Origin: a virus
DNA length: 31,196 nucleotides
Strand: one strand, 5' to 3'
Virus record (IMG/VR): IMGVR_UViG_3300017753_000051
Location: 1 to 31,196 of that record
Below are positions 12,011-28,054 of the stretch, in pieces (position 1 is the stretch's first letter; every line of letters starts with the position of its first letter). A program made the position numbers and the translations under genes. A model generated the notes under the pieces. The model did not search any database. It was not told where the DNA came from and saw only the letters and a list, made by a program, of their open reading frames with translations.

Positions 12011-12571
12011 ATGACTCATAGACCAGTCGGGTCTGGCGTCTCGTTTTCTACGTCAACAAGTTCATCGAAATCTGCTGCTTTTACTGGGAAATCTCAGGCA
12101 CTCAGACTTTTTGCTACAGATAGTAATACCTTTGTTGCAATTGGAACTGAACCGACTGCAACTTTGAACGATTATGCCGTGCCAGCAGGAACCACTGCAA
12201 CTATTGCTATCAATAACGGATCTGCAAGAGTTGTTGATGTTACTCGCGGAGCAACTACTTTCATTCATTTTCCTGAAGGTCAAGCATCTCCATTTGGTGT
12301 AGGAGATTATGTTTCCTTATCAACTTCAGATAATGGTGGACAAGATTATTATAATTTTAGTCATAAACCAGTAACTGCAGTTGCAACTTCTGCAAATGTT
12401 GATGGTTTCTTTTCAACTAGAATTACAGTCGGAACAGATACATCAGGTATTGGAACTGCATTTAACGATCCCGATACATCATTGAGAAATTCAATCAAAG
12501 TTGCAGCGATCACTGATCAAGGAACTGGAGCACTCTACACACAACAAGTACAAATTAGCGGAGCAGCCTGA
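12011..12571 (+). CDS. Beta-rich protein in the prohead-core cluster, function unknown
   Basis: The 186-aa product is Ser/Thr/Gly-rich and predicted all-beta (FVAIGTEPTATLNDYAVPAG, TTATIAINNGSARVVDVTRG, VGDYVSLSTS), with no cysteine or membrane segment. It occupies the place of T4 gene 68 but does not look like gp68, a charged helical core protein. A head decoration or other virion protein is more in keeping with the composition. Its stop overlaps the gp21 start (TGATG), so translation of the protease is coupled to it. I do not recognise a named family. Confidence 0.65.
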   Translation: MTHRPVGSGVSFSTSTSSSKSAAFTGKSQALRLFATDSNTFVAIGTEPTATLNDYAVPAGTTATIAINNGSARVVDVTRGATTFIHFPEGQASPFGVGDYVSLSTSDNGGQDYYNFSHKPVTAVATSANVDGFFSTRITVGTDTSGIGTAFNDPDTSLRNSIKVAAITDQGTGALYTQQVQISGAA

Positions 12572-13221
12572 TGAAACTAATTAGAGAAGAAGTAGAATCA
12601 GTAGAATTTATTGTCGAATCTAAGAACGGCAAAAAGTCTATGTATATTGAGGGAGTATTCCTTCAAGGAAACATCAAGAACCGTAATGGTCGTATGTATC
12701 CTATGGATACTCTTCGTAAAGAAGTTTCGCGCTATAACGAAAATCATGTTCAATCAGGTAGAGCACTTGGAGAACTTGGTCATCCTGATGGACCAACAGT
12801 AAATTTAGATCGTGTATCTCATAAGATTATTTCTTTAAGAGAGAGTGGATCTAACTTTATTGGTAAAGCAAAAATTTTAAGTACCCCTATGGGTAAAATT
12901 GCATCTTCACTTATCGATGAAGGCGTAAAACTTGGAGTTTCATCTCGTGGTATTGGTTCATTAAAGCAGACTCGTGAAGGTGTTAATATTGTAAGTGATG
13001 ATTTTATGCTTGCAACTGCTGCTGATATTGTAGCAGATCCTTCTGCACCCGATGCTTTTGTTGAGGGTATTATGGAAGGTAAAGACTGGGTGTGGGATGG
13101 CGGCATTCTTCGTGAGAAGTATGCTGAGAAAACATACCAACATATTAATACGTTAGTAGATCAAAAGCAACTTGATGAACAAAAGTTAAATTTGTTTAAT
13201 CAGTTTCTTTCAAATTTATAA
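12571..13221 (+). CDS. gp21: Prohead core scaffolding protease gp21
   Basis: A serine protease of the T4 gp21/herpesvirus assemblin type that digests the scaffold and trims the capsid protein during prohead maturation. Catalytic-site motifs are visible: H71 in ELGHPDGPTVNLDRVSH and the serine pair S124/S125 in GVSSRGIGSL. The N-terminal motif GVFLQGNIKNRNGRMYP is also family-typical. The length of 216 aa is close to T4 (212). Likely target sites, (L/I)-x-E followed by a small residue, occur in gp23 (LNE|A) and gp22 (LSE|D). Confidence 0.95.
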   Translation: MKLIREEVESVEFIVESKNGKKSMYIEGVFLQGNIKNRNGRMYPMDTLRKEVSRYNENHVQSGRALGELGHPDGPTVNLDRVSHKIISLRESGSNFIGKAKILSTPMGKIASSLIDEGVKLGVSSRGIGSLKQTREGVNIVSDDFMLATAADIVADPSAPDAFVEGIMEGKDWVWDGGILREKYAEKTYQHINTLVDQKQLDEQKLNLFNQFLSNL

Positions 13222-21043: not shown

Positions 21044-22742
21044 AAAAATCCGTTGGAAAAACTTTCTTTCTACCGGAAATCAATTTACAGAAGTTGAACT
21101 GAATAAAGAATCTACAACTCTTATCATTGGCAATAATGGTGCAGGTAAGTCAACGATCTTAGATGCGTTAACTTTTGTATTGTTTGGAAAATCTTTTCGT
21201 AAGATTAATAAACCACAACTCATTAACTCTACGAATGAAAAGGATTGTCTTGTAGAGATTGAGTTTACTATTGGTTCTACTAACTGGATGATTCGTAGAG
21301 GAATCAAGCCAAGTTTATTTGAAATTTATAGAAATGATACTTTGTTAGACCAGAATGCTTCGGCAGTAGAGCAACAGAAGTTTCTGGAACAGGTTATTCT
21401 TAAGATGAACTATAAGTCTTTTACTCAGATTGTCATCTTGGGTAGCAGTAACTTTGTTCCATTTATGCAACTGGCGACATCAAGTCGCAGAGAAGTTATT
21501 GAAGACTTGTTGGATATTAAGATTTTTTCTTCAATGAATAATATTCTGAAAGAAAAGATTCGGGGTATCAAGGATAATATTCGCACCTTAGAACTCAAGA
21601 AAGAATCTGTTAGTGATAAAGTTCAGATGCAGGAGAACTTTATTGAAGAACTTGAGAACCGTGGAAAGAAAAATATTGAGGATAAAGAATTTAAGATTGG
21701 CAAACTCCTTGTAGAAGAAAATAATTGGATGGGAGTCAACGAAGAAAAAAATAGAAAACTATTTGAACTCCAAGGAAAACTTGAAAGTTATAGTGGTGCT
21801 ACGGAAAAACTTCGTAAATTTGGTAATCTAAAGGGAAAGATTTCTAACAAAGTATCAACTATTACTAAGGAACATAAATTTTTCTCACAGAATACGGTTT
21901 GTCCTACCTGTACTCAGGATATAGAAGAATCGTTTCGGTTAAATAAAATTGAAGACGCTCAAAATAAAGCAAAAGAGTTGCAATCTGGATATAAAGATCT
22001 GGAGGAGGCAATTAAAAATGAGGAAGAACGAGAGCGTCAATTTACTGTTCTATCAAAGGAGATCACTTCCCTAACACATGGCATTTCTCAAAACAATACT
22101 AAGATCGCTGGATGTCAACGACAAGTCAGAGATCTGGAATCGGAAATTCAAAAAGTTACCGAACAACTTGCAAATAGAACTGCTGAGAATGAAAAGTTAG
22201 ATATCTTCAAAGAAAACTTAAAACAAGTATATGATGACTTGTCTGGGGAAAAAAATCTGATTCAATATCATGACTTTTCATACTCTTTGTTAAAGGACAG
22301 TGGAGTAAAATCCAAAATCATCAAAAAATATTTACCTCTGATTAACCAACAGGTTAATAGATATCTTCAGATGATGGATTTCTATATTAACTTTACGTTA
22401 GATGAAGAGTTCAACGAAACGATTCAATCCCCTATTCATGAAGACTTTTCTTATTCTTCTTTCAGTGAAGGTGAAAAACAACGTATTGACCTAGCACTTC
22501 TCTTCACTTGGAGGGAAGTTGCAAAATTAAAAAATTCAACTAATACAAACCTCCTTATTCTTGATGAGATTTTTGATTCTTCCCTTGATGGATTTGGAAC
22601 AGAAGAGTTTCTTAAAATCATCAGGTATGTGATTAAAAACGCAAATGTTTTTGTCATCTCTCATAAGAGTGGAATGGAAGACAAATTTGAAAATGTTGTG
22701 AAGTTTGAAAAAACAAAAGGTTTTAGTGGAATTGTAAAATGA
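21030..22742 (+). CDS. gp46: Recombination ATPase subunit gp46 (SbcC/Rad50 type)
   Basis: gp46 is the SMC-like ATPase partner of gp47. Walker A GNNGAGKS (34-41) follows an N-terminal IRWKNFLSTGNQFTEVEL strand. Two coiled-coil arms flank the zinc hook CPTC (C291/C294). The ABC signature FSEGEKQRIDLAL starts at residue 478 and Walker B LLILDEIFDSSLD at 508 (D512/E513); the H-loop is in VFVISHKSGM. It is 570 aa against 560 in T4, so appears complete. The start lies inside the DUF3110-like gene; its TGA overlaps the epimerase ATG. Confidence 0.96.
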   Translation: MILFEKIRWKNFLSTGNQFTEVELNKESTTLIIGNNGAGKSTILDALTFVLFGKSFRKINKPQLINSTNEKDCLVEIEFTIGSTNWMIRRGIKPSLFEIYRNDTLLDQNASAVEQQKFLEQVILKMNYKSFTQIVILGSSNFVPFMQLATSSRREVIEDLLDIKIFSSMNNILKEKIRGIKDNIRTLELKKESVSDKVQMQENFIEELENRGKKNIEDKEFKIGKLLVEENNWMGVNEEKNRKLFELQGKLESYSGATEKLRKFGNLKGKISNKVSTITKEHKFFSQNTVCPTCTQDIEESFRLNKIEDAQNKAKELQSGYKDLEEAIKNEEERERQFTVLSKEITSLTHGISQNNTKIAGCQRQVRDLESEIQKVTEQLANRTAENEKLDIFKENLKQVYDDLSGEKNLIQYHDFSYSLLKDSGVKSKIIKKYLPLINQQVNRYLQMMDFYINFTLDEEFNETIQSPIHEDFSYSSFSEGEKQRIDLALLFTWREVAKLKNSTNTNLLILDEIFDSSLDGFGTEEFLKIIRYVIKNANVFVISHKSGMEDKFENVVKFEKTKGFSGIVK

Positions 22743-23455
22743 AAGTATTGATCACAGGACATAAAGGTTTTATTGGTAGTAATGTTTATTTGGACTGGCA
22801 AGAAGAACTTGGAAATGTAAACGTTGATGGTATTGATAGACCTGATGATGTGAGTAGTTTTTCTGGAGGTGACTATGATCTTGTAGTTCATCTTGCAGCA
22901 TATGCAAACATTAGAGACAGTCTTGAAAATCCCCAACTGTTTTATGAGAACAATGTAGTCAAAGCAAAACCACTCTTTGACTGGTGTCAAGAAACAAATA
23001 CTAGACTCCTTTATGCGTCTTCTAGTGCAGTAGAAGAAGACTACTGGGAAAATCCATATGCGATGACAAAATGGGTAAATGAAATGATGGCACCAAAGAA
23101 TTCAGTGGGAATGCGTTTCACAACAGTTTATGGTCCTGATAGTAGGAAGGACATGATGTATCGTATGCTTCAGGATAAAACTGCTAAGTATGTCACGAAT
23201 CATAAGCGAGACTGGATTCATGTGAAGGATGTATGTCGTGCTATTCGGTATCTTGCAAGTAGTGACATTACTGGTCCTGTATCTGTTGGAACTGGAAACT
23301 CTGTTTCTGTAAAAGATCTAGCAGAAAAGATGGGTATGGGTCACCTACCAGTAAAGGAAGTGACACCAGGAGAACGTCAAGACAATGCTGCCGATGTTAC
23401 ACTTCTGAAAAGTACTGGATGGTTTCCAAGCATTAATGTTCTTGATACAGTTTAG
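22739..23455 (+). CDS. NAD-dependent nucleotide-sugar epimerase/dehydratase (extended SDR)
   Basis: The Rossmann motif TGHKGFIG (G7-x2-G10-x2-G13) is followed by DLVVHLAAYANIRDSLENP, the family's HLAA motif. The catalytic segment LLYASSSAVEEDYWENPYAM-TKW supplies the Ser and Y107-x3-K111. RFTTVYGPDSRKDMMYRMLQ and the late WIHVKDVCRAIRYLA motif complete an extended-SDR pattern such as UDP-glucose 4-epimerase. At 238 aa it is shorter than cellular enzymes (about 310-340 aa), with a reduced C-terminal substrate domain. The substrate is unknown; LPS or glycan modification is a possible role. Epimerases near gp46 are found in other cyanophages. It is coupled to gp46 by ATGA overlap. Confidence 0.88.
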   Translation: MKVLITGHKGFIGSNVYLDWQEELGNVNVDGIDRPDDVSSFSGGDYDLVVHLAAYANIRDSLENPQLFYENNVVKAKPLFDWCQETNTRLLYASSSAVEEDYWENPYAMTKWVNEMMAPKNSVGMRFTTVYGPDSRKDMMYRMLQDKTAKYVTNHKRDWIHVKDVCRAIRYLASSDITGPVSVGTGNSVSVKDLAEKMGMGHLPVKEVTPGERQDNAADVTLLKSTGWFPSINVLDTV

Positions 23456-23466
23456 AGAAGTAAATT

Positions 23467-23474
23467 TATAAATA
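23467..23474 (+). promoter_or_regulatory. Perfect late promoter octamer (TATAAATA)
   Basis: An exact TATAAATA lies in the 38-base gap before the ATG at 23494, 19 bases upstream of it. Confidence 0.7.
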
Positions 23475-23493: not shown

Positions 23494-23958
23494 ATGGATT
23501 ATAAAGATTTGCGTAGTATTCAAGAATCATACAATGCAATGTATTCTGAAGAAGTAGTTGAAGAAGGTTTGGCAGGTATGGTTGATAAGGCAACCAAAGC
23601 AGGTCAAGCTGGTTTGGAAAAAATGGGTGTAAAAATCAACCGCACTCCTAGACCAACTGCTAGACCAAGTGTCAGAACACAAGACACTATGCGTCAAAAT
23701 CAGTCTAGTATGGAAGAAGTCGATGTCTTTGATATCGTCAAGGGTCATCTGATTGATGAGGGTGCAACCGAATCTGAAGCACTCAAAACAATGTTTTCAA
23801 TGACTGAAGAAGAAATTAATGCAGTCATTGAAGCATATACCGTAACTAATGCAGACAAAAAAGGTAACACCCCTGCATATCAAAACTATATGAAAGGTAT
23901 GAAAGGTAAAGATGGTAAACCCGTGTATCAGGCAGCACCCCACCTGAAGGGAGTCTGA
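23494..23958 (+). CDS. Late-expressed protein of unknown function
   Basis: The 154-aa protein begins MDYKDLRSIQESYNAMYSEE, similar to the start of several cyanophage structural proteins. It has a basic Pro/Arg segment (RTPRPTARPSVRTQDTMRQN) and an acidic helical part (EVDVFDIVKGHLIDEGATES, EALKTMFSMTEEEINAVIEA) that recurs in proteins of these phages. The C-terminus is Lys/Gly-rich (YMKGMKGKDGKPVYQAAPHL). It is flanked by a perfect late octamer and an intrinsic terminator, so it forms a one-gene late transcription unit. A virion protein, perhaps packaged internally, is likely but not proven. Confidence 0.65.
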   Translation: MDYKDLRSIQESYNAMYSEEVVEEGLAGMVDKATKAGQAGLEKMGVKINRTPRPTARPSVRTQDTMRQNQSSMEEVDVFDIVKGHLIDEGATESEALKTMFSMTEEEINAVIEAYTVTNADKKGNTPAYQNYMKGMKGKDGKPVYQAAPHLKGV

Positions 23959-23979
23959 ACCACTTTTATAAGTGTCTAC

Positions 23980-24006
23980 AGGGAGGTCTTCGGACCTCCT
24001 TTTTTT
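23980..24006 (+). terminator. Intrinsic terminator with TTCG loop
   Basis: GGAGGTC (23982-23988) pairs perfectly with GACCTCC (23993-23999) around a TTCG loop, extended by a G-T and an A-T pair, and is followed by a run of T. It shares the 12-base core GGTCTTCGGACC with the terminator after gp23. Confidence 0.92.
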
Positions 24007-24007
24007 G

Positions 24008-24013
24008 TATAAT
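24008..24013 (+). promoter_or_regulatory. Possible -10 element before the CobT-like gene
   Basis: TATAAT lies 21 bases before the ATG at 24035 and 2 bases after the terminator T-run. No acceptable -35 is visible at 16-18 bases because that region is the terminator stem. It could be a promoter that needs an activator. Confidence 0.4.
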
Positions 24014-24034: not shown

Positions 24035-26167
24035 ATGGCAGTTTCGCACGAAATCAAATCTCAACTTGCCAAACTGTTGGCAACTGAAGATCTAATTGTG
24101 GAGCATCGTCAGGTTGAAACTGCACAGTTCAACGTTCAGACTCGCGTTTTGACCCTTCCCCAGTGGGAAAAAGCAAGTAACTTTGTTTATGATATGCTTG
24201 TCGGACACGAAGTAGGTCACGCTCTCTTTACTCCAGACCAGGATCCACCCAAAGGTATTCCTCATACCTATATCAATATTGTTGAGGATGCTCGTATTGA
24301 GAAACTGATGAAGCGTAAATATCTGGGTCTTGGTAAAACCTTTTATCGTGGATACAAAGAACTTTCTGACGAAGACTTCTTCGTTCTAAAGGATGAAGAT
24401 GTTTCTAAAATGAGTCTGCCTGATCGTATCAATCTTCACTTCAAGATTGGTAACTATATTGATATTCCCATTTCTTCTGGTGAAGAACAGGGGTTGGTTG
24501 ATATGATTGCTGCTTGTGAAACGTTTGAAGATGTGATTGCTGCTTCTGAAGCACTCTATAAGCACTGTAAAAAGGAAAAGGAACAAGAAAAAGTTGCTGA
24601 CATTCAACAGCAACCTCAGCAAGATCAAGAAAGTTCTGGTGAAGAAACTAAAAAACAGATACCTCAAATTGAAAACCAAATCTCTGAAGATACTGGTGAC
24701 AGCGATAGCGAAGAAAGAGAAAAGCAAGATACTCAGAACCTGAACACTCAGATTGGTGCTGGAGACACTTTTGATGGTGAAGTTCGCACTGTAGATACTC
24801 TCAATGACAAACTTAAAGAGTTGGTGTCTAAGAGTGGCATTGATAACACCTATGCAGAACTTCCTAAAGTAAATCTTGATACTATCATTGCTAATAATTC
24901 TGAGATTCATGATCACATTGATGAGTATTTCAATCTTCAAAGTGCCCGTTTCGATACTATCTTTGACAATGTTGATGCTGAATATAAGGAGTTCAAAAAG
25001 TCTGCTCAGAAAGAAGTCAATTATCTTGTGAAAGAGTTTGAATGTAAGAAAGCAGCGGACTCTTATGCTCGTGCTACTACATCAAGCACTGGAGTCTTGG
25101 ATTGCTCTAAACTGCACACTCACAAGTACAATGAAGATCTATTCAGAAAAGTTACCACTCTGAGTGACGGTAAGAACCATGGTTTAATCTTTGTACTTGA
25201 TTGGTCTGGTTCAATGTCTAGTGTTCTTAAGAATACTTGTAAGCAACTTTACAACCTTATCTGGTTCTGCAAGAAAGTTTCCATTCCTTTTGAGGTTTAT
25301 GCTTTCACTAATGAGTGGATTCGTCAGTATTATGATTATAAAGTTGAGAATTACGTTCAATCAAATGCTCAACCTCATTATGAAAAGAAAGAAGGACTTC
25401 TATGTGTGTCTGATCAGTTTTCAATGATGAATCTTCTTACTAGTAAAACTAACGGTAAGGAACTTGAGCGTCAGATGATTAATATCTGGAGGATTGCTAA
25501 TTACTACTCTAGTTCTTGGGGTTCTTCTTATTCTATTGCAGAACGACTTTCTCTTTCTGGAACTCCTCTGAATGAAGCACTGGTTTCTCTTCATCAAATC
25601 ATTCCTAAGTTTCAGAAGGAAAATAAACTACAGAAAGTTCAGTGTGTTGTTCTGACTGATGGTGAGGCAAATTCACTTCCACGTCACGTTGAAATCAAAA
25701 TTGGTGATTCTAAACCTTATATTGGTGCTCAACGTTTGAACGGTGGTATTAGCTTTATCCGTGATCGTAAGTTGGGAACTACTTATGCTGTTGGATATAA
25801 TTTCTTTAAGTTCTCGGAAATTCTTCTGAACAATCTTAAGGATAATTTTCCACAAGTGAACTTTATTGGTATTCGTGTCGTTTCCTCTCGCGATGCAAGT
25901 GGTTTTATAAAAATGTATTGTGATCTTGGTTCTAAAGAACACACTGCTATTCAAACTGAGTGGAAGAAGACTAAAAGTTTTTGCATCAAAAACTCTGGAT
26001 ATGATGCATATTTTGGTATCTCTGCATCTGCACTTTCTCAAGAGACTGAATTTGAAGTTGATGAAGGTGCAACAAAAGCAAAGATTAAATCTGCTTTTGT
26101 CAAGTCTTTGAAGACTAAGAAACTAAATAAGAAAGTTCTTGGTGAATTTATTTCTCTGGTGGCATGA
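24035..26167 (+). CDS. CobT-like VWA protein with HExxH metallopeptidase motif
   Basis: The ATG at 24035 is chosen because upstream in-frame codons run through the terminator. The 710-aa protein has an N-terminal metal-site motif H58-E-V-G-H62 (MLVGHEVGHALFTP) followed by NIVEDARIEKLM (E84/D85), the HExxH...NxxED pattern of metallopeptidase-like domains fused to VWA. A low-complexity acidic Gln/Glu linker spans about 185-245. The C-terminal VWA domain has MIDAS residues D389/S391/S393 (DWSGSMSS), T510 (GTPLNEAL) and D542 (LTDGEAN). Such proteins pair with MoxR/CobS AAA+ ATPases; one is encoded close downstream. A chaperone-like or metal-insertion role is inferred; no cobaltochelatase large subunit CobN is present. 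Confidence 0.8.
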   Translation: MAVSHEIKSQLAKLLATEDLIVEHRQVETAQFNVQTRVLTLPQWEKASNFVYDMLVGHEVGHALFTPDQDPPKGIPHTYINIVEDARIEKLMKRKYLGLGKTFYRGYKELSDEDFFVLKDEDVSKMSLPDRINLHFKIGNYIDIPISSGEEQGLVDMIAACETFEDVIAASEALYKHCKKEKEQEKVADIQQQPQQDQESSGEETKKQIPQIENQISEDTGDSDSEEREKQDTQNLNTQIGAGDTFDGEVRTVDTLNDKLKELVSKSGIDNTYAELPKVNLDTIIANNSEIHDHIDEYFNLQSARFDTIFDNVDAEYKEFKKSAQKEVNYLVKEFECKKAADSYARATTSSTGVLDCSKLHTHKYNEDLFRKVTTLSDGKNHGLIFVLDWSGSMSSVLKNTCKQLYNLIWFCKKVSIPFEVYAFTNEWIRQYYDYKVENYVQSNAQPHYEKKEGLLCVSDQFSMMNLLTSKTNGKELERQMINIWRIANYYSSSWGSSYSIAERLSLSGTPLNEALVSLHQIIPKFQKENKLQKVQCVVLTDGEANSLPRHVEIKIGDSKPYIGAQRLNGGISFIRDRKLGTTYAVGYNFFKFSEILLNNLKDNFPQVNFIGIRVVSSRDASGFIKMYCDLGSKEHTAIQTEWKKTKSFCIKNSGYDAYFGISASALSQETEFEVDEGATKAKIKSAFVKSLKTKKLNKKVLGEFISLVA

Positions 26168-26301
26168 ACTGGAAAGAAATCGCACTTCAAAGTGAAACTA
26201 ACCCTAAGATCCGTAAGGTTCTTTTAGAGGGTCCTAAGAAATTAACAGATGCATGGTTGCTAGCTGCAATGAAATTTAAGTATGGTCGGTTTGAAAAGTG
26301 A
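26164..26301 (+). CDS. 45-aa peptide between the CobT-like gene and cobS
   Basis: This ORF starts inside the stop of the VWA gene (ATGA overlap). It reads MNWKEIALQSETNPKIRKVL, LEGPKKLTDAWLLAAMKFKY and ends GRFEK. It is basic and probably helical, with no membrane segment. Its overlap with the upstream stop and its position ahead of the cobS promoter support a real gene. I do not recognise a family. Confidence 0.5.
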   Translation: MNWKEIALQSETNPKIRKVLLEGPKKLTDAWLLAAMKFKYGRFEK

Positions 26302-26312
26302 CCCATGATTAT

Positions 26313-26340
26313 TTGAGATCCCTCTTTTTTACCCTATAAT
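26313..26340 (+). promoter_or_regulatory. Sigma70-type promoter of cobS
   Basis: TTGAGA (26313-26318), a 16-base spacer and TATAAT (26335-26340). Transcription would start near 26347, giving a short leader before the ATG at 26363. The T-run at 26325-26330 is not preceded by a convincing hairpin. Confidence 0.7.
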
Positions 26341-26362
26341 AACTTCAGTTCAAACAAACAAC

Positions 26363-27451
26363 ATGTCTCTCTCACCTGAGTTCATTCGCACTTCCCTTCA
26401 AGGGTTGTATGGTGAGTCTGTTGCTGCTGCTGATATTCGTGCCTGGTGTGCTATGAATGGCGCGAACTACCAAACTGTCACCAACAAACTTGCTGATTAC
26501 AAAACTAGTCGTGGAAAGTGGAACTTGACCGTTCAAGAAAAACTAGAGCAAACCTATCAGGCACTACCTGCTATGCCTGCTATCAAACAAAACCTTATTC
26601 CTGCAAAAGATGATACCTTCGTCAGCTTTGGTAACTTCGCTGATATTAAAAAAATTATTAAGTCCGGTCTGTTCTATCCAACGTTCATTACGGGTCTTTC
26701 GGGTAATGGTAAAACGTTCTCTGTGGAGCAAGCATGTGCTCAAACAAAACGAGAACTTATCCGTGTAAACATCACAATCGAAACAGATGAAGATGATCTC
26801 ATTGGCGGATTCCGCCTTGTCAATGGTGAAACCGTTTGGCACAATGGTCCAGTCGTCGAAGCCTTGGAGCGCGGTGCGATTCTATTGCTTGACGAGATTG
26901 ACCTGGCTTCCAACAAAATTCTTTGCCTTCAATCAATCCTGGAAGGAAAAGGAGTTTTCTTGAAGAAGATTGGTAAGGTTGTTCAACCTACCGATGGTTT
27001 CAATATCGTTGCCACTGCAAACACTAAGGGTAAAGGTTCTGATGATGGTCGCTTTATTGGTACTAATGTTTTGAATGAAGCATTCCTGGAGCGTTTTCCT
27101 GTGACTTTTGAGCAAGAATATCCGACAGTTGCTATTGAGCAGAAAATTTTGAACAAATTTTGTACTGATGAAAATTTTTGTATGCGACTTGTTGATTGGG
27201 CAGATATCATCCGTAAGACCTTTTATGATGGTGGTATTGAAGAAATCATCAGCACTCGTCGTCTGATACACATTATCAAGGCATACAACATCTTCCAAGA
27301 CAAAGCAAAGGCAATTCAGGTTTGTGTGAATCGTTTTGATGATGAAACCAAGCAAGCATTCCTTGAACTATATGATAAAGTTGATGCAGATTTCCAAATG
27401 CCTGTAGAAAATAATAGTACCGATGTGATTGACACAGAGGTTTCATTTTGA
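26363..27451 (+). CDS. cobS: CobS-type MoxR-family AAA+ ATPase
   Basis: The 362-aa protein has a helical N-terminus, Walker A GLSGNGKT (111-118), the pore-loop-like segment DLIGGFRLVNGETVWHNGPV, Walker B ILLLDEID (D177/E178), sensor 1 in FNIVATANTKG, and an arginine-finger region NEAFLERFPV. This is the CobS/MoxR subfamily, whose bacterial CobS works with CobT in cobalt insertion during vitamin B12 synthesis. cobS is a well-known gene of T4-like cyanophages. Here the likely partner is the VWA protein encoded upstream. Whether the phage pair acts in B12 metabolism or as a remodelling chaperone cannot be decided from sequence. It has its own sigma70-type promoter. Confidence 0.88.
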   Translation: MSLSPEFIRTSLQGLYGESVAAADIRAWCAMNGANYQTVTNKLADYKTSRGKWNLTVQEKLEQTYQALPAMPAIKQNLIPAKDDTFVSFGNFADIKKIIKSGLFYPTFITGLSGNGKTFSVEQACAQTKRELIRVNITIETDEDDLIGGFRLVNGETVWHNGPVVEALERGAILLLDEIDLASNKILCLQSILEGKGVFLKKIGKVVQPTDGFNIVATANTKGKGSDDGRFIGTNVLNEAFLERFPVTFEQEYPTVAIEQKILNKFCTDENFCMRLVDWADIIRKTFYDGGIEEIISTRRLIHIIKAYNIFQDKAKAIQVCVNRFDDETKQAFLELYDKVDADFQMPVENNSTDVIDTEVSF

Positions 27452-27457: not shown

Positions 27458-27496
27458 ATGACTAACTCATGGTCCTTTCTATTTGACGAATTAAAT

Positions 27497-28054
27497 ATGT
27501 CTAATCAAAATTATTGGGAAGATGGCGGATTCAGTTTGACAGGTAATCCTCCTTATCAGACAAATACTGCATCTTCAGACACTAGTGTTTTTAGTAGTTC
27601 TTATCTTGCAGGTGATAGGGGTAATGACCATATCTCATTTATTGGCAATGATGCTCGACCAGCAGCACAGATTCCCGTTACTCTTGGAGGAGAAGATACT
27701 ATTACTTTTAATATGAATCAACCTTTTAAATCAACACCCACACCCACACTTACACCTTCAACTAACACTAAGCAAAAGTATAGTGAAGATGTAATCATTA
27801 AAGAACTAAAAGATTACATCACTAGAACATATGACCAGCACTATTCTGCTGGTTCTGATAAGATTCAGACTCTTGATCTTATCGAAGCTTGTGGTGATGG
27901 TGAGGCATTCTGTCGCAGCAACATTCTCAAGTATGCGTCACGATATGATAAGAAGGGAACTGCGCGTCGTGACATTATGAAAATTCTGCATTATGCTGTG
28001 CTCCTAATGCATTTCAACGATAAGAATGCACAACGTGAAATCTACCCTCAATGA
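27497..28054 (+). CDS. DUF3310 domain protein
   Basis: The longest ORF starts at 27458, but its ATG touches the -10 box of a consensus promoter, so transcripts from that promoter would lack it; the in-frame ATG at 27497 (MSNQNYWEDGGFSLTGNPPY) is preferred, giving 185 aa. The N-terminal half is low-complexity and Ser/Thr/Pro-rich. The C-terminal 65 residues match DUF3310 (TLDLIEACGDGEAFCRSNIL, KYASRYDKKGTARRDIMKIL, HYAVLLMHFN), a small helical domain common in phages, sometimes called nucleotide-kinase-like without proof. It lies just upstream of the sliding-clamp gene and may be co-transcribed with it, suggesting a replication or nucleotide role. Confidence 0.8.
   Translation: MSNQNYWEDGGFSLTGNPPYQTNTASSDTSVFSSSYLAGDRGNDHISFIGNDARPAAQIPVTLGGEDTITFNMNQPFKSTPTPTLTPSTNTKQKYSEDVIIKELKDYITRTYDQHYSAGSDKIQTLDLIEACGDGEAFCRSNILKYASRYDKKGTARRDIMKILHYAVLLMHFNDKNAQREIYPQ

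Follow-up and report, generated by a model that had tools for sequence, protein, structure and literature searches.

The module and its conservation

Within IMG/VR virus record IMGVR_UViG_3300017753_000051 we examined a module encoding a protein that combines an HExxH metallopeptidase motif with a VWA domain, a 45-residue peptide and a CobS-like MoxR AAA+ ATPase. The window, meaning the whole 31,196-nucleotide stretch analysed, is a 31.2-kb T4-like cyanophage-type record in which tail sheath, portal, gp21 protease and major capsid genes are followed by gp47 and gp46, the module, and gp45 and gp44. The module is composed as follows, MIDAS denoting the metal-ion-dependent adhesion site of the VWA domain.

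24035 to 26167, + strand: VWA/HExxH protein, 710 residues (PHROG 459 'peptidase', phrog_459, 866.9 bits; T4-GC 146 in the S-SM2 and P-SSM4 records)
24035 to 24604, + strand: predicted N-terminal zincin-like domain, residues 1-190 (AlphaFold2 model and metallopeptidase structural matches)
24206 to 24220, + strand: HEVGH, residues 58-62, with two presumed zinc ligands and the presumed catalytic Glu; invariant, 131/131
24275 to 24295, + strand: N81-x-x-E84-D85-x-R87, E84 being the presumed third zinc ligand, with its neighbours; invariant, 132/132
25199 to 25213, + strand: MIDAS DxSxS (D389, S391, S393); invariant, 134/134
25562 to 25564, + strand: MIDAS T510; invariant, 135/135
25658 to 25660, + strand: MIDAS D542; invariant, 135/135
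26164 to 26301, + strand: 45-residue peptide (phrog_869; MNWKEIALQ...), its start overlapping the VWA stop codon
26363 to 27451, + strand: MoxR/CobS-like AAA+ ATPase, 362 residues (phrog_249; AAA_5, 67 bits, 2.3e-18)

An earlier note, made from the letters of the window, had described the HEVGH, NxxED and MIDAS residues, the short peptide and the CobS-type ATPase, and all of these are present. EDARIE occupies residues 84-89, DWSGS 389-393, SGTPL 508-512 (with T510) and TDGE 541-544 (with D542). The mechanically called open reading frame (ORF) begins further upstream, at a GTG at 23972; the alignments of homologues start at the ATG at 24035.

Residue counts were taken from tblastn alignments to viral and genome-collection loci, covering about 130 homologous viral and viral-like loci. 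Several of the 'genome' matches are probably phage contigs binned into metagenome-assembled genomes and were therefore counted as viral-like loci rather than as cellular genes; many such matches among loci L117-L147, labelled Bacteriovorax, Euryarchaeota, Planctomycetota and others, resemble mis-binned T4-like phage contigs. Loss of HExxH in close homologues, which by the earlier note would have refuted its reading, was seen in 0 of 131 loci, and the reading stands on this point; a distant homologue in Stenotrophomonas phage BUCTxx99 has lost the motif. In a 50-row alignment of the N-terminal domain (N-domain), which takes in five bacterial homologues of 17-23% identity, the sole invariant columns are P42, H58, E59, H62, N81, E84, D85, R87 and G98. 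Judged from the alignment, this pattern is that of an active site, and the signature is kept in bacterial mobile-element homologues and in most other phage lineages examined. The bacterial and genomic-island branch (loci L148, L150, L151, L152 and L192) comprises proteins from Methylobacter, a gammaproteobacterium, Aeromonadales and Salmonella GI-Cluster 7-6, where the HExxH-VWA gene lies near ssb and bet.

The partner is an AAA_5/MoxR-type ATPase with both Walker motifs (Walker A GLSGNGKT, residues 111-118; Walker B LLLDEID, residues 174-180), in which G116 and K117 are conserved in 115 of 115 loci and E178 in 110 of 110, and the VWA protein encoded beside it has an intact MIDAS. The CobS-like gene lies downstream of the VWA gene in 93 of the 100 loci with room for it, and gp46 lies upstream in 82 of 89. 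This conservation and pairing support the same note's proposal that a MoxR AAA+ protein is paired with a VWA protein whose metallopeptidase signature is intact. The 45-residue peptide has homologues in 36 loci and appears optional to the module, since pcyA occupies its slot in P-SSM4 and none is annotated in P-HM2. Cyanophage S-CREM2 also carries the pair (locus L030, 5865-9119), with a CobS-like protein (59% identical) and annotations of 'ribosome assembly protein' and 'MoxR-like ATPase'; its genome paper lists S-CREM2 as lacking cobS (PMC10665884). The CobS query also brought up an ATPase of a Staphylococcus kayvirus; it was rejected as a member of the same module, there being no neighbouring ORF of at least 250 residues with HExxH or VWA motifs in the fetched locus.

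Predicted folds of the VWA/HExxH protein

A full-length AlphaFold2 model was built from a 42-row alignment (predicted local distance difference test score, pLDDT, 78). Because VWA matches dominated the fold search with this model, a separate model of the N-domain was made and searched. The best structural matches of the VWA part of the full-length model are the MIDAS domains of human MDN1 (Z 16.4) and Rea1 (15.4), together with NorD (15.4). The model of the N-domain alone has a pLDDT of 91.5 and a predicted template modelling score of 0.86, and places HExxH on a helix spanning residues 49-65 and E84 on a helix spanning residues 77-95. The top 18 VIA rows for this domain hold metallopeptidase structures only (Z 4.4-6.6), the matches including ZMPSTE24 (6.6), ArdC (6.5), selecase, abylysin, jannalysin, IrrE/PprI and BlaR1; the best Foldseek match has an E of 0.05, and a sequence search of solved structures returned nothing for the N-domain. 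Each single Z is modest, and the fold class is assigned because a consistent list of metallopeptidases coincides with an invariant motif.

A zincin fold for the N-domain is thus supported but not settled. The model suggests the zincin arrangement of HExxH followed by an acidic presumed third ligand on the next helix, all invariant. The earlier note had raised the question of whether H58, H62 and E84 come together in space; the predicted helices and the zinc peptidases found as best folds are consistent with such a presumed convergence. ArdC, IrrE/PprI and selecase/jannalysin, which are among the best structural matches at modest Z, differ from the phage protein in sequence (about 7-16% identity) and in lacking a VWA domain or AAA+ partner.

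Relation to cobaltochelatase

The names CobS and CobT that had been attached to the two proteins did not survive comparison with curated families. The CobS-like protein scores 63.6 bits against the CobS equivalog TIGR01650, for which the cut-off is 558.55, whereas a real CobS, from Sphingomonas, scores 599.4. The VWA protein matches neither the Pfam CobT models PF06213 and PF11775 nor DUF2201 (E up to 1), PF11775 has 0 candidates in the whole window, and the family to which the protein does belong is PHROG 459.

We compared the phage protein with real CobT, represented by 32 alphaproteobacterial proteins fetched by PF06213. HExxH is kept in 0 of the 32; for one row, L176, the N-terminus was misaligned in the joint alignment and the motif region was read separately. 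In that alignment CobT reads G-x-x-D-x-x-A-L at the HExxH position but retains the glutamate at the E84 position, within E(Q/T)xR. Profile comparison joins the cyanophage N-domain to that of mobile-element homologues (E 2.7e-16, Methylobacter group) and the mobile-element N-domain, all groups together, to that of CobT (E 5e-9), with reversed controls at E 0.14 or worse; the intermediate profile excludes a T4-like Ochrobactrum protein, the inclusion of which would be circular. A direct link between the cyanophage and CobT N-domains was unconvincing (E 0.0044 or 0.76, depending on settings) and was discarded, so that only the chain through the mobile-element homologues connects them. By way of these intermediates, profile comparison indicates homology between the N-domain of the phage protein and its counterpart in real CobT, and both CobT domains are distantly homologous to the phage protein.

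In a 41-sequence tree CobT forms a single clade (100/100), surrounded by mobile-element proteins with HExxH intact; 100/100 branches set it off from a second clade, that of the cyanophage proteins. The HExxH state needs two changes only, one in CobT and one in the Stenotrophomonas phage. A tree of the VWA domain only likewise puts a CobT clade on the same side as the mobile-element proteins, its internal branches being less well supported; both trees are midpoint-rooted and have long branches, and their CobT sample is alphaproteobacterial. We infer that CobT lost the motif rather than that the others gained it, since HExxH is ancestral in zincin folds. We suggest, tentatively, that CobT may be a domesticated, catalytically dead descendant of AAA+-driven metallopeptidases otherwise spread mainly by phages and mobile elements, that the cyanophage 'cobS/peptidase' core module may be an active, early-expressed member of that family, and that its listing as a B12 auxiliary metabolic gene may be wrong. 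The phage proteins are distant relatives of CobT, yet 'peptidase' is the better annotation for the cyanophage protein.

The CobS/CobT part of cobaltochelatase (CobNST) resembles the phage pair in uniting an AAA+ MoxR motor with a VWA protein. It differs in that CobT is without HExxH (32/32), that the phage CobS-like and VWA proteins fail the curated models, and that no CobN accompanies the phage module, an absence which the earlier note had remarked upon and which extends to all 15 complete phage genomes carrying such a pair. Closer to CobT stands the pair of SSU5-type phages and phage-plasmids, annotated 'CobT' and 'porphyrin biosynthesis', which shares with the cyanophage pair the HExxH and ED motifs, the VWA domain, the AAA+ partner and adjacent DNA polymerase genes, but falls in a clade of its own, on the side of the tree where CobT lies; an E. 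albertii plasmid protein of this type matches both PF11775 and PF06213, unlike the cyanophage protein.

It has been proposed that phage CobST makes use of host CobN (PMC8651126). The pair would then increase cobalt insertion and the yield of B12 or pseudo-B12, and the 'peptidase' would be a misannotated CobT. A partner for such work does exist: CobN/ChlH-type proteins are encoded in 59 of the 61 genomes examined from the host family, so that the lack of a CobN in the phage is not enough by itself to exclude it; a CobT match was found in 0 of the 61, a gap that a phage protein could fill, and the distant homology to CobT is real. The missed TIGR01650 cut-off and the lack of PF06213 and PF11775 matches speak against this explanation, as does the peptidase site, strictly conserved in the phage though lost in real CobT. 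Of the features expected of a chelatase subunit, neither loss of HExxH (131/131 loci keep it) nor grouping with CobT in the tree is seen in the cyanophage protein. Escherichia and Pelagibacter, moreover, which are not known to carry out aerobic corrin synthesis, are among the hosts whose phages or phage-plasmids carry similar pairs. On balance we consider a role in B12 synthesis unlikely. Among the sampled alphaproteobacterial genomes with a CobT match, which may be incomplete, 30 of 68 had no CobN match, and Caulobacter vibrioides, included as a named control, has a CobT match and no CobN match; a role that does not depend on CobN may exist even for real CobST.

Promoters, genome location and the virion

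Three signals on the + strand, the first of them read from the sequence, bear on when the module is expressed.

23982 to 24006, + strand: hairpin and T-run terminator, GGAGGTC TTCG GACCTCC TTTTTTT, parting the module from the upstream genes
24008 to 24013, + strand: TATAAT, -10-like box, 27 nucleotides before the VWA start
26335 to 26340, + strand: TATAAT, -10-like box, 28 nucleotides before the CobS-like start

An exact TATAAT lies within 70 nucleotides upstream of the VWA gene at 24 of 115 loci, and TATAAT precedes the CobS-like gene at 74 of 85, compared with 4.5% in random windows. The motif NATAAATA, described as the cyanophage late motif (PMC2984593), was found upstream of VWA genes at 0 of 115 loci and of CobS-like genes at 1 of 85. 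In the window it precedes a tube paralogue, gp18, gp20, gp22 and others, and also uvsW; some structural genes are without it. The portions of transcriptome papers available as text do not name the peptidase or cobS genes.

The genes on either side, named by likeness to annotated relatives, and the gp21-like protease of the window are located as follows.

19734: gp47
21030: gp46
28051: gp45
29126: gp44
12571 to 13221: gp21-like protease

Replication or recombination genes adjoin the pair not only in T4-like phages but also in phages unrelated to them, namely SSU5, RHEph10, B1VFA, ICP2, oyster Zobellviridae and BUCTxx99. The homologous pair of S-CREM2, ORF55 (31017-33062) and ORF56 (33141-34271), is absent from a 52-protein virion proteome in which the gp21 protease and scaffold were detected (PMC10665884).

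These observations bear on a second explanation, that the pair is a virion-assembly chaperone with a maturation protease. Iyer et al. (2021; PMC7824862) reported a MoxR and metallopeptidase-vWA pair of the same three-part architecture from group 2.2 jumbo phages, made no connection to CobT and, reasoning from the MoxR-VWA pair of an archaeal virus, proposed a part in virion assembly; the likeness of their pair to that of the cyanophages was judged by architecture. MoxR-VWA pairs do act in assembly elsewhere, and transient assembly factors may leave the virion; absence from the S-CREM2 proteome is not proof against an assembly role. The promoters, location and virion proteome nevertheless argue for an early or middle, non-virion role in cyanophages: late promoters all but never precede the pair while several structural genes of the window carry them, the pair sits among replication genes, it is missing from a virion in which protease and scaffold were seen, and the window already encodes a gp21-like protease. 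We regard an assembly function as quite improbable. The earlier note had proposed that the module remodels or processes a host or virion protein rather than, or as well as, making B12; remodelling or processing rather than B12 synthesis is probable, and it is the virion substrate that fits poorly with the early/middle promoters, the replication neighbours and the proteome.

Several other features of the neighbourhood were noted. An NAD-dependent epimerase-like ORF (22739-23455) is inserted between gp46 and the module, where S-SM2, P-SSM4 and P-HM2 have no such annotation. Between it and the early-type module lies a 154-residue ORF (23494-23958) with a late-type NATAAATA motif at 23467 and partial PHROG matches to function-unknown families only. 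Adjoining the CobS-like gene is that of a DUF3310 protein (27458-28054), which is extended at its N-terminus by about 100 residues of low complexity. Rfam and tRNA scans of the window gave no matches; neither did PADLOC, and hence there is no hint of a defence system.

A model for the pair

Based on these observations, we propose that the pair is probably an ATP-driven protein remodeller with a probably active metallopeptidase, expressed early or in mid infection. The motor would be a ring, presumably hexameric, of the CobS-like MoxR AAA+ protein. Coupled to it, the VWA domain would use its MIDAS metal to hold a ligand or adaptor, in the manner of Rea1/midasin and NorQ-NorD. The protein delivered would be cut by the N-terminal zincin domain, with H58, H62 and E84 as putative zinc ligands and E59 as the presumed catalytic residue. 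The pair would be made together with replication and recombination genes in early or mid infection, and its target is most likely a protein of the host or the phage that is present at this time, and not the virion or the corrin ring. NorQ-NorD and Rea1/midasin share with the phage protein a VWA domain of the same structural type working with a MoxR or midasin AAA+ ring; to our knowledge, neither has an N-terminal metallopeptidase-like domain.

Some observations weigh against this model. Promoter class was assigned by motif alone, the neighbours of the pair in haloarchaeal and Gordonia phages are less clearly replicative, and the structural Z scores of the N-domain are modest (no higher than 6.6). 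In the distant BUCTxx99 homologue (locus L188, 6846-8831) REVST replaces HExxH, while EDVRTE is intact and the rest of the protein is kept; to go by this sequence, the peptidase site may be dispensable in some phages. A third explanation, in which the motif binds zinc as a structural or peptide-binding site and the protein is a non-proteolytic co-chaperone of the AAA+ motor, draws some support from CobT and the Stenotrophomonas phage protein, both of which function, or have at any rate been retained, in the absence of HExxH. In zincins, however, the Glu of HExxH is the general base and not a zinc ligand, and E59 is as invariant (131/131) as the histidines; we think this explanation very unlikely. 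The central claim of an active protease is testable at this one residue, E59.

The architecture itself had already been noted in jumbo phages (PMC7824862). What appears to be new is the link to a degenerate CobT, together with the argument against labelling the pair as B12 genes, and we found no paper in the open-access literature connecting the cyanophage peptidase to CobT in this way.

The pair occurs in nearly all marine T4-like cyanophages, usually labelled as a B12 gene and a 'peptidase'. Published work lists cobS among the core auxiliary metabolic genes of these phages (PMC3037559; PMC10665884), and viral control of B12 has been inferred from it in ecological papers (PMC13390420 is an example). 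Should the pair prove to be an early protease that remodels proteins, such inferences from cobS would not hold, and one of the core functions of viruses abundant in the ocean would have gone unstudied under a metabolic name. CobT, in turn, would gain an origin, its N-domain having formerly been a metallopeptidase.

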